Positions 5,790-21,959 of a stretch of DNA of 21,959 nt are shown here, piece by piece. Under the pieces are notes generated by a model. The model had not been told where the DNA came from. It saw only the letters and a list, made by a program, of their open reading frames with translations, and did not search any database. Both the position numbers and the translations under genes were made by a program. Source of the stretch: a virus. Within the stretch, counting starts at the first letter, position 1, and every line of letters begins with the position of its first letter. The DNA is taken from IMG/VR virus record IMGVR_UViG_3300034630_000011, positions 1 to 21,959 of that record. One strand, 5' to 3'.

Positions 5790-5883
5790 CCCCTTGTCCC
5801 ACCGTTCACTCTGCCCCGCGGCAGGCCGCTCTCCCGGATCTTGTCTGGGCAGATACGCCTGCCACCTGCCACGCAGAACTTCC

Positions 5884-5914
5884 GCCGCACTGTCGTTGAT
5901 TGGTGCGGCTTTTT
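5884..5914 (+). terminator. Intrinsic terminator upstream of the tail tube gene
   Basis: GCCGCAC (5884-5890) pairs with GTGCGGC (5903-5909) across a 12-nt loop, followed by TTTTT. It is 45 nt before the tail tube ATG, so expression of the tail genes from the late promoter needs read-through. The 5790-5959 gap holds nothing else I can support. Confidence 0.7.
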
Positions 5915-5959
5915 GTTTGTCTGTTGTCACTTCGACATCTCCACTGAAAGGCCCATTCC

Positions 5960-6601
5960 ATGGCTGTATCCCTGCCCGACGGCGCAACCATCGCCATTGC
6001 AACCACCTACGGCTCGGTCAAGACCGTGACCGCCATCACCAACGCCAACCCCGGCGTCATCACCTCGGCCGCGCACGGCCTGCTCAACGGTGCCTTCTAC
6101 GAGCTCAAGTCGGGCTGGCAGAAGATCAGCGACCGCGTGTTCAAGGCCTCCAACGTGGCCACCAACGCGCTGGACGTGACCGGCATCGACACGACCGACA
6201 CCAACCGCTTTGCGGCCGGTACCGGCGTGGGCAGCCTGCGCGAGATCACGGCCTGGACGCAGATCCCGCAGATCCTGGAGTTCACCACCAGCGGCGGTGA
6301 CCAGCAGTTCGCCAACTTCTCCTTCCTGGAAGAAGACTACGAACGCCAGCTGCCCACGGTGACCAGCGCCCAGTCGATCCAGATCGGCATCGGCGACGAC
6401 CCTTCGCTGCCCGGCTACCAGGCCCTGAAGGCCGCCGGCGAAGCCCGCGCCATCCGCGCGCTGAAGGTCACCCTGCCCAACGGCGCCGTGCTGCTGTACA
6501 ACGGCTTTGTGTCCTTCAACGAAACGCCCACGCTGACCAAGGGCAGCGTGATGCAGGTGCGCGCCACCATCTCGCTGCAAGGCCGCCCCACGCGCTACTG
6601 A
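5960..6601 (+). CDS. Major tail tube protein
   Basis: 213-aa protein. It begins MAVSLPDGATIAIATTYG and has the beta-rich, moderately acidic composition of siphophage tail tube proteins, including TQIPQILEFTTSGGDQQF, FSFLEEDYERQLPT and a C-terminal strand segment (KGSVMQVRATISLQG). It should polymerise into hexameric rings around the tape measure. The assignment is supported by what follows: chaperone with frameshift, then tape measure, the standard siphophage order. A GAAAGG Shine-Dalgarno (about 5946-5951) lies 8 nt before the ATG. The head-tail connector genes that normally precede it are absent here. Confidence 0.85.
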   Translation: MAVSLPDGATIAIATTYGSVKTVTAITNANPGVITSAAHGLLNGAFYELKSGWQKISDRVFKASNVATNALDVTGIDTTDTNRFAAGTGVGSLREITAWTQIPQILEFTTSGGDQQFANFSFLEEDYERQLPTVTSAQSIQIGIGDDPSLPGYQALKAAGEARAIRALKVTLPNGAVLLYNGFVSFNETPTLTKGSVMQVRATISLQGRPTRY

Positions 6602-6607
6602 GCGCGC

Positions 6608-6627
6608 CAGGCGCCGTGAGGCGCCTG
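6608..6627 (+). other. Perfect 8-bp hairpin after the tail tube gene
   Basis: CAGGCGCC-GTGA-GGCGCCTG, a perfect 8-bp stem with a GNRA-type tetraloop, starts 7 nt after the tail tube stop. It is followed by TCTTCCCCTTT, a poor T-run. Best read as an RNA-stabilising or weak termination hairpin behind a highly expressed gene. Confidence 0.5.
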
Positions 6628-6690
6628 TCTTCCCCTTTGCCTGCACCGCCAGCAACCAGCTCTGGCCTTGCGGGCACCCCCATGCACCGA

Positions 6691-6744
6691 CCCGGCCCTG
6701 TTCGCTCCTTCGAGGGGGCGGCAGGGCTGGGCACGGGCTTTTTT
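6691..6744 (+). terminator. Probable terminator upstream of the tail chaperone gene
   Basis: GCCCTG (6695-6700) pairs with CAGGGC (6722-6727). CCCG (6691-6694) can stack with CGGG (6734-6737) across a bulge, placing the stem next to TTTTTT (6739-6744). Less clean than the other terminators in this operon. It is 36 nt before the chaperone start. Confidence 0.4.
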
Positions 6745-6780
6745 CCTGTTTGTGTTTCCTCCCTCGAAAGAACCAACATC

Positions 6781-7362
6781 ATGGCCAAACTCGTAATCGG
6801 CAAGTCCACCCCCAAGTCCTTCGCGCTCAAGGTGGAGGTGCCCACGCCGCACGGGCTCGACGAAGTCAACTTCGACGCCCGCCACCTGCCCTCCACCGTG
6901 TGGGCCAAGATGCGCGAGCAGCACGCCGACGCCATCGGCAAGACCGTGCAGGCGCTGTTCGACGCCGCGCGCCAGGAGGCTGAGCAGGCCTACGCAGCCG
7001 AGCAGGCGAGCAAGCCTGTGGCTGCTGTTGCTGCTGCCGCCAAGAAACCCGCCGGCAAGAAGGCTGCAGTGGTTGCGGCCGAAGCCGCCAACGATGGCGC
7101 CGAAGTGGTGTTGTCGTCCGACGCCGACGCCAAGGAAGCTGCCATCACCGCGCTGATCAAGCCCGTGAAGGAAAGCGACATCGCCAGCCTGCGCGCCAAG
7201 CACAGCGCCGAGCTCATCGTGCAGATCGTCACCGGCTGGGACCTGGACGAACCCCTGGGCGTGGACGCCCTGGTCGACATGTGCGACAGCTACCCCGGCG
7301 CCGCCGAGGCCGTGTTCAAGGCCTACAACGAAACCCGCGAAGGCCTGCGCCTGGGAAACTGA
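6781..7362 (+). CDS. Tail assembly chaperone (lambda gpG-like)
   Basis: 193-aa protein between tail tube and tape measure, the position of lambda G. Residues 1-65 are a compact domain (KSFALKVEVPTPHG, VNFDARHLPSTVWAKMREQ). Residues about 75-110 form an Ala/Lys-rich linker. Residues 115-193 are a helical domain ending in AYNETREGLRLGN. Such proteins coat the tape measure and recruit tail tube subunits during assembly and are not in the virion. The stop at 7360-7362 directly follows a GGGAAAC slippery heptamer, so a minority of ribosomes should continue into the -1 frame. The ATG at 6781 is the only start giving a folded N-terminus; its Shine-Dalgarno is weak (GAAAGA). Confidence 0.85.
   Translation: MAKLVIGKSTPKSFALKVEVPTPHGLDEVNFDARHLPSTVWAKMREQHADAIGKTVQALFDAARQEAEQAYAAEQASKPVAAVAAAAKKPAGKKAAVVAAEAANDGAEVVLSSDADAKEAAITALIKPVKESDIASLRAKHSAELIVQIVTGWDLDEPLGVDALVDMCDSYPGAAEAVFKAYNETREGLRLGN
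7353..7359 (+). promoter_or_regulatory. Programmed -1 ribosomal frameshift site GGGAAAC
   Basis: In the chaperone frame the heptamer is read as G GGA AAC, exactly X XXY YYZ, and the next codon is the TGA stop. Slipping back one base re-pairs the tRNAs on GGG and AAA and continues CTG AAG GCC into the DUF1799 frame. Lambda uses GGGAAAG at the same place between G and T. Downstream only a small GGCC-ATC-GGCC hairpin is visible; no obvious pseudoknot. Confidence 0.85.
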
Positions 7363-7682
7363 AGGCCATCGGCCGCGCGCCCTACCACAAGCCCCCCGAC
7401 GAGGCCGAGCTGGCCGCCTGGGGCATGCGGTTAAGCGACTTCCCCGAGCAGGACGTGGAAGTCTGGCCCGAGCACGTGGACGCCTGCCTGCTGTTTTGCA
7501 GCGTGAGCACCCAGTGGCGCGTGGGCATGGGCGGAGCGACGGGGCTGGATTACCCGGCGGTGTTTGCGACGCTGGACCGCTTGCACCGGGGCAAGACCGA
7601 TGCAGAGCGGGATGCGGTCTTTGCGGACTTGCAGGTGATTGAGCGGGCGGCGTTGGAAGAGATGAACAGCGGCAGGGATTGA
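7359..7682 (+). CDS. DUF1799-type extension of the tail chaperone (gpT-like), made by -1 frameshift
   Basis: 107 codons open from the slip site. Features matching DUF1799 are PEQDVEVWPEHVDACLLF, QWRVGMGGATGLDYPAV, and a terminal acidic helix (VIERAALEEMNS). It has no credible start of its own: the only early ATG (7425) would cut off the N-terminal PYHKPPDEAEL segment and lacks a Shine-Dalgarno. The expected product is a chaperone fusion of about 300 aa (6781-7359 joined to 7359-7682). In lambda the gpGT fusion links the tape measure to tail tube subunits, and the G:GT ratio matters for assembly. The same role is inferred here. Confidence 0.82.
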   Translation: MKAIGRAPYHKPPDEAELAAWGMRLSDFPEQDVEVWPEHVDACLLFCSVSTQWRVGMGGATGLDYPAVFATLDRLHRGKTDAERDAVFADLQVIERAALEEMNSGRD

Positions 7683-7897: not shown

Positions 7898-13240
<5,343 letters not shown>

Positions 13241-20747: not shown

Positions 20748-21235
20748 GTGGCGGCAAGACCGTGCCACACCTGCTGGCGGTGCCAGCGGCTGGCGCCCGC
20801 CCGCCCGCACCAGTAGAGCCGCGCGAGGGCGTGGGCGCGGGTGAGCCCGGGGACGGCGTGACGCCGGCCATGGTGCTGCGTGAGCTGGCGGGCATAGCCT
20901 TCTTCGACATCCGCAAGCTCTTCAACGGCGATGGCAGCCTGAAGCGCGTGCAGGAGCTCGATGGTGCCACGGCCGCCGCCATCGCCTCCATCGAGGTGGT
21001 GGAGATCGGCCCCGGCGGCCAGCTGGAACTGGGCAAGAAGTTCAAGTCGCCCGAAAAGCTCAAGGCCCTGGACCTGCTGGGCACGCACCTGGGCATGTTC
21101 GCCAAGAAGGCCGACGAGGCCCCCGACCCGCTGCGCAAGGCCCTGGCGCAGATGCCCGCCGAGCGCGCCGAAGGCATGCTGGCTGCGCTGGAGCAGGTGA
21201 AGTCGACCAGGGAGAAGCCGCACAGTGCCCGCTGA
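20744..21235 (+). CDS. Terminase small subunit (Terminase_2-like), lacking the usual N-terminal HTH
   Basis: 163-aa protein. Residues about 43-120 match the C-terminal part of Terminase_2 small subunits: MVLRELAGIAFFDIRKLFNG, ELDGATAAAIASIEVVEI, and SPEKLKALDLLGTHLGMF. This region forms the oligomer and contacts the large subunit. The usual N-terminal helix-turn-helix (phage-type LTxKQxRFVxEYL) that recognises the packaging site is missing; residues 1-42 are Pro/Gly/Ala-rich. No in-frame upstream extension encodes one. It is coupled by ATGA to the gene before and overlaps the terminase large GTG by 11 nt. Confidence 0.78.
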   Translation: MSGGKTVPHLLAVPAAGARPPAPVEPREGVGAGEPGDGVTPAMVLRELAGIAFFDIRKLFNGDGSLKRVQELDGATAAAIASIEVVEIGPGGQLELGKKFKSPEKLKALDLLGTHLGMFAKKADEAPDPLRKALAQMPAERAEGMLAALEQVKSTREKPHSAR

Positions 21236-21959
21236 GCTGCCAGCCCTTCCCGACGTTCTGGCCGGCGCCACGCTCGAAGAGATCGCGGCCATCGAGGCTT
21301 TGCTGCGCGAGCGGCTCGCAGGTTGGCGCATGCGCCGCTTTTTCCAGGACGAAGGCCCTCTGCGTCGCGCGCTGTACGGCCGGCACCTGGCCTTCTTCCG
21401 CGCCGGCGCTGAGCACCGTGAGCGCTGCTTCATGGCCGGCAACCGCGTGGGAAAGACCATTGCGGGGGCCTACGAAACAGCTCTGCACCTCACGGGCCGC
21501 TACCCCCATTGGTGGGAGGGGCGGCGCTTCGATGGCCCCATCCAGGCCTGGGCCGCCGGCAAGAGCCTGGAGACCACGCGCGACATCGTGCAGCTCGAAC
21601 TCTATGGCCAGCCCGGCCAGCCGGGCACTGGCATGGTGCCGGCCGACGACATTGCCAAGGCCCGCCCGCGCGCCGGCGCCAACGGCGCGCTCGACTACCT
21701 GTGCGTGCGCCACCAGAGCGGGGGCGAGTCGGTCATCGGGTTCAAATCGTATGACCAGGGCCGCAAGGCCTTCGAGGGCACGGCACGCCACTGGGTGTGG
21801 CTGGACGAGGAGCCGCCCGTGGCGGTGTACAGCGAATGCCTGACGCGCACCGCGACCACGCAGGGGCTCATTGCGATCACCTTCACGCCGCTGGAGGGGG
21901 CGACGGAGGTGGTGCTGGATTTCTTGACGAAGGGGGTGGTGGTGGGTGGGGCGGGGTGA
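21225..21959 (+). CDS. Terminase large subunit, ATPase part only (stops at 244 aa)
   Basis: Packaging motor ATPase. Walker A GNRVGKT at residues 72-78, Walker B VWLDEE at 191-196 with Asp194 and catalytic Glu195/196, and coupling motif III around TFTPLEG (219-225). These make the ATPase domain complete. A TGA at the window end closes the frame shortly after motif III. Large subunits are normally 400-600 aa with a C-terminal RNase H-like nuclease, so this one is truncated or frameshifted in the G-rich stretch just before the stop. GTG start at 21225 with GGGAG about 9 nt upstream, overlapping the small-subunit stop. Without nuclease it could not cut concatemers. Confidence 0.85.
   Translation: MPAELPALPDVLAGATLEEIAAIEALLRERLAGWRMRRFFQDEGPLRRALYGRHLAFFRAGAEHRERCFMAGNRVGKTIAGAYETALHLTGRYPHWWEGRRFDGPIQAWAAGKSLETTRDIVQLELYGQPGQPGTGMVPADDIAKARPRAGANGALDYLCVRHQSGGESVIGFKSYDQGRKAFEGTARHWVWLDEEPPVAVYSECLTRTATTQGLIAITFTPLEGATEVVLDFLTKGVVVGGAG

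Follow-up and report, generated by a model that had tools for sequence, protein, structure and literature searches.

A slippery heptamer adjoining the chaperone stop codon and a predicted -1 frameshift into DUF1799 in a viral tail gene cluster

Results

Organization of the tail locus

The window, that is, the whole stretch of 21,959 bases analyzed here (virus record IMGVR_UViG_3300034630_000011, IMG/VR), carries a tail assembly chaperone and a DUF1799 domain as a pair between the tail tube gene (Phage_tail_3), which lies upstream, and the tape-measure gene (Table 1). An earlier note on this DNA had placed the pair at 6781-7682, and this span is correct: the chaperone starts with the ATG at 6781 and the -1 frame ends with a TGA at 7680-7682. 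The slippery heptamer, which that note had described as lying directly before the chaperone stop, is indeed there and in phase (G_GGA_AAC), and the -1 frame opens at C7359 with a Leu codon. The chaperone and the DUF1799 residues together (193+107) give a predicted fusion of 300 aa, in agreement with the proposed G/GT-like pair of 193 and about 300 aa. Both halves were matched, in order, by PHROG 17368, a 213-aa family, and NCBIfam contains no model for either half.

Table 1. Features of the tail locus in the window.
Feature	Position	Strand	Evidence
Major tail (tube) protein gene, Phage_tail_3	5960..6601	+	Pfam 4.7e-58; PHROG 584 major tail protein
Tail assembly chaperone, G-like, 193 aa, stop TGA 7360-7362	6781..7362	+	Phage_TAC_4 E=5e-19
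Slippery heptamer G_GGA_AAC adjoining the 0-frame stop	7353..7359	+	Sequence; same spot in relatives
Predicted T-like extension in the -1 frame, DUF1799, 107 residues after the shift	7359..7682	+	E=5.7e-27
Tape-measure gene, 1782 aa	7892..13240	+	TMP_3 E=2.2e-9, just below the curated cut-off; length

The tail region (5869-7682) is 96% identical to an Acidovorax soli contig, so the host is probably Acidovorax or a near relative. At about 6976-7170 the chaperone gene contains a long Ala/Lys-rich insert that is absent in most relatives (the T1 chaperone has 105 aa), and a Q/S repeat (QSQSQSQQQQ...) lies within the tape-measure gene at about 9470-9560. The genes of the window follow the order repressor, replication, NinB-like, tail, lysis and terminase, with head genes absent before the tail, and the NinB-to-tail junction is common to four sister records of 21-25 kb (G001, G003, G004 and G005; loci L004, L006, L007 and L009). 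Neither Phage_portal nor Phage_capsid had a match in the window or in these four records, and the element may be a defective prophage or may encode a tail only, as a flexible tailocin-like element would. The large terminase is apparently split (window 21225-21959; L471 2590-4895; L472 213-2642): its N part has the same end point (FLTKGVVVG) in the relatives, followed by differing inserted ORFs, and its C part picks up again about 1 kb on, followed by host-like genes (a chemotaxis receptor and, by eye, a Fic-like gene).

Conservation of the slippery heptamer

The motif GGGAAACT occurs once in the window against 0.30 occurrences expected by chance and turns up in roughly one in four shuffled windows; the motif alone is therefore weak evidence, and it is the phase, the position and the conservation that carry the case. 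To assemble relatives from viral contigs, bacterial genomes and phage records, similarity of the DUF1799 protein was the sole criterion and the motif played no part; DUF1799 was located by profile HMM in 382 fetched loci, some contigs being present in more than one scan. A TAC-like ORF precedes DUF1799 in 372 of 379 relatives. The heptamer lay exactly at the 0-frame stop and in phase as AAAAAAC in 198 loci, GGGAAAC in 159 and TTTAAAC in 1, such that AAAAAAC or GGGAAAC adjoins the chaperone stop in 357 of the 382 DUF1799 loci; 13 others had a heptamer 3-9 nt before the stop, 1 had it at 39 nt, and in 10 loci no heptamer was found.

When the loci were clustered at 70% identity into lineages (n=71), a heptamer adjoined the stop in 65 (GGGAAAC, AAAAAAC or, once, TTTAAAC), lay at 3-9 nt in 5 and at 39 nt in 1. 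The earlier note had named conservation of the heptamer in homologues as a check, and with 65 of 71 lineages at the stop and 5 more within 9 nt this is borne out. GGGAAAC and AAAAAAC alternate among the lineages, the slip property being kept, and the frameshifted-chaperone arrangement thus appears to be almost universal across the approximately 70 DUF1799 lineages.

Some individual loci depart from this pattern. In a T1-like subgroup (L349-L351, L353 and L354) the sequence reads GCA AAG GTC TAA, the heptamer having been lost with DUF1799 still in the -1 frame; here an A_AAG tetramer, which is shift-prone in E. coli (Atkins et al., PMC5009743), may serve instead of the heptamer. The sequences of L042 and L159 are truncated, and two A are missing from the A run of L003, for which a +1/-2 arrangement was considered and set aside, the two missing bases representing an error or a mutant.

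Translation of the -1 frame and alternative explanations

Comparison of the -1 frame with the six closest relatives placed most substitutions at third positions, which indicates translation of the DUF1799 domain and purifying selection on it. Translation as one of two separate genes, with DUF1799 beginning at its own start (GTG 7281) or reached by re-initiation past the chaperone stop, would be consistent with the many records in which two genes are annotated, for example VarioGold and Aval. The window does contain this in-frame GTG, 78 nt upstream of the junction and inside the chaperone gene, and to that extent the earlier statement that the -1 frame has no start of its own is too strong. 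However, no Shine-Dalgarno-like match precedes GTG 7281, the first in-frame ATG (7425) lies inside the DUF1799 domain, and in 37 of 69 lineages no ATG, GTG or TTG was found before codon 9, a near-invariant Tyr, nor in 61 of 69 any start with a Shine-Dalgarno-like match before it. The earlier note would have taken independent second-frame starts in homologues as a refutation, and the outcome was the opposite. Residue conservation in the -1 frame begins near the junction, and a two-gene arrangement leaves the conserved slippery heptamer unexplained; we consider it very unlikely.

Slippage by the RNA polymerase rather than by the ribosome, on the A run, could be envisaged for the roughly one third of lineages that have six consecutive A, but the window and most lineages carry GGGAAAC, in which three A are too short for the polymerase, and both heptamer types are phase-locked to the ribosomal X_XXY_YYZ rule, making this explanation even less probable. 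The least probable is that the motif is kept merely for the Gly-Asn or Lys-Asn end of the protein, with no shift at all. Such a constraint would fit with the invariance of the terminal Asn: among 50 aligned chaperones with a mean identity of 26%, the last residue, Asn193, is the sole invariant column, and its codon is the second slip codon. Nevertheless, the synonymous choice at the slip site is also locked. All 43 GGGAAAC lineages have GGA for Gly, a codon with a 13.8% share among the Gly codons of these loci; for Lys the codon is invariably AAA, against an expectation of 32%, and for Asn it is invariably AAC, against an expectation of 73%. In many lineages, moreover, DUF1799 has no other evident translation route.

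Predicted frameshift and the role of DUF1799

From the anatomy of the locus, the conservation of the heptamer and the missing alternative start, we infer that a programmed -1 ribosomal frameshift of the lambda G/GT type makes a chaperone-DUF1799 fusion, with a probability of about 0.94. The features of this type found at the locus are the site between the tube and tape-measure genes, the chaperone ORF coming first, and the conserved heptamer leading into a -1 extension. Most ribosomes would stop at the TGA at 7360 and release the chaperone, while a minority would slip back by one base on G_GGA_AAC, tRNA-Gly and tRNA-Asn re-pairing with GGG and AAA, and would then bypass the stop to produce the fusion. 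If the lambda scheme applies, the chaperone part would coat the tape-measure protein and the DUF1799 part would recruit the tail-tube subunits, and neither would remain in the finished tail. In lambda, gpG is produced in an approximately 30:1 excess over gpGT, whose T part attaches to the tube protein (Atkins et al. 2016, PMC5009743), and an HK97-like chaperone cluster gave 6-7% frameshifting when assayed in E. coli (PMC3711429). Since A_AAA_AAC slips far less readily in E. coli than A_AAA_AAG does (PMC5009743), the frameshift rate could be low.

The earlier note had tied DUF1799 to the gpT role, and the position and the predicted fusion agree with this, although as an analogue only, for the searches revealed no sequence relationship between DUF1799 and Phage_tail_T. 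The Phage_tail_T profile (PF06223) was matched by the T halves of lambda, HK97 and KS9, whereas the extension in the window matched DUF1799 only. Remote membership of DUF1799 in Phage_tail_T was also tried with hhalign, which found nothing against a lambda/HK97/KS9 alignment of 7 sequences, 5 of them near-identical. By its position and the predicted fusion, DUF1799 is thus a well-supported candidate for the gpT role, as an analogue outside the gpT family.

The AlphaFold models had pLDDT values of 88 for the chaperone, with low confidence at residues 95-100, and 94 for DUF1799. Fold comparison with the PDB gave no clear match for either half; the HK97 gp13 structure (2ob9_B) appeared with Z 3.5 and rmsd 6.3 over 95 aligned residues, amid unrelated rows of like score. 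Among predicted structures, the DUF1799 model matched proteins that carry the name 'Tape measure chaperone' in the phages F20, Solomon and Scapp.

RNA signals and the adjoining stop codon

No notable RNA structure was found downstream of the window heptamer (z 0.10). Across lineages, the 50 nt downstream folded slightly more stably than control sequences did, with a mean z of -0.88 against -0.29. A shared downstream stem-loop was considered and rejected, as there was no common structure on an ungapped alignment and the window was unremarkable, and so was an upstream Shine-Dalgarno-like stimulator, for which the signal was weak (mean z -0.3 to -0.5). Some lineages, namely phage T1 (L099 2181-2260), L070, L090 and L105, show a strong hairpin (z about -4) a few bases past the stop; others have none.

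The average distance between heptamer and stop in other phages is 26-36 nt (PRFect paper, PMC10885494). The second -1 codon at the DUF1799 loci varies (Lys, Arg, Thr, Ile, Glu, Ser or Ala) and nearly always starts with A, or with G after CTA, as the stop in the other frame requires. Where this codon specifies Arg, 13 of 14 lineages have AGA or AGG, codons with a share of 12.7% in the same loci, and 25 of 70 lineages have CTA, a rare Leu codon with a share of 8.8%. Both comparisons are illustrative, as the lineages are not fully independent. This codon bias beside the heptamer suggests that the adjoining stop is kept by selection at the nucleotide level.

In a bacterial system, frameshifting at the HIV-1 heptamer fell when a stop was placed behind it, and was lost altogether when RF2 was in excess and the stop was its cognate one (PMC4373837); these effects make a shift in competition with a release factor plausible. 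The ribosome would pause with the stop codon in the A site, slippage would compete with the release factor (RF2 at TGA), and the speed of termination, not RNA structure, would set the ratio of chaperone to fusion. That the stop is a selected part of the signal in this sense is a tentative proposal, which on balance we regard as doubtful.

Discussion

Relation to published work

The arrangement is less new than the earlier note suggests, since T1-like phages are already annotated with a tape-measure chaperone frameshift, and the frameshifted pair of Phage_TAC_4 and DUF1799 is known in kind from their publications and annotations. In the open-access literature DUF1799 appears in one paper, as a separate gene and with frameshifting unmentioned, most subscription papers falling outside the search; within this mostly open-access literature, neither a near-universal DUF1799 shift nor codon evidence for a selected stop was found in print. 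DUF1799, listed in Pfam as of unknown function, gains a likely role in some 70 lineages as the T-like part that a frameshift appends to the chaperone, and records with two separate genes at this site probably miss the fusion protein. The adjoining stop also makes these loci a simple natural system in which to ask whether -1 frameshifting in bacteria is tuned by how fast termination proceeds.

Comparison with known phage systems

HK97 gp13/gp14 resembles the window in being annotated as a -1 frameshift chaperone, but it combines Phage_TAC_1 with Phage_tail_T, and a scan of the gp13/gp14 overlap found no X_XXY_YYZ heptamer. Lambda gpG/gpGT likewise lies between the tube and tape-measure genes and joins a chaperone to an extension by a -1 shift at G_GGA_AA(G/C). 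In contrast to the window, however, the lambda T half is Phage_tail_T, and 15 nt separate its heptamer, GGGAAAG, from the stop.

The T1-like phages (Drexlerviridae; T1 gp40/gp39, Rtp35/36, Stevie and Skenny) have a tape-measure chaperone pair like that of the window, and the published announcements of Stevie and Skenny describe the frameshift (PMC4319613, PMC6763657). T1 and Rtp share with the window Phage_TAC_4 followed by DUF1799 in the -1 register and a heptamer at the stop, although their heptamer is AAAAAAC rather than GGGAAAC and the pair is annotated as two genes in their records; the T1-like chaperone also lacks the long insert of the window. A chaperone-DUF1799 join is annotated in one public record, that of a Serratia phage. 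Finally, KL1 gp18/gp19 (PMC3483164) and Loki gp12/gp13 (PMC5313236) have GGGAAAC-TGA and AAAAAAC-TAA at the stop, respectively, as in the window, but the KL1 extension is Phage_TAC_18, not DUF1799, the Loki extension is KL1-like by eye, and an additional gene precedes the tape measure. Since KL1 and Loki carry it with a different extension, the stop-adjoining heptamer is more widespread than DUF1799.
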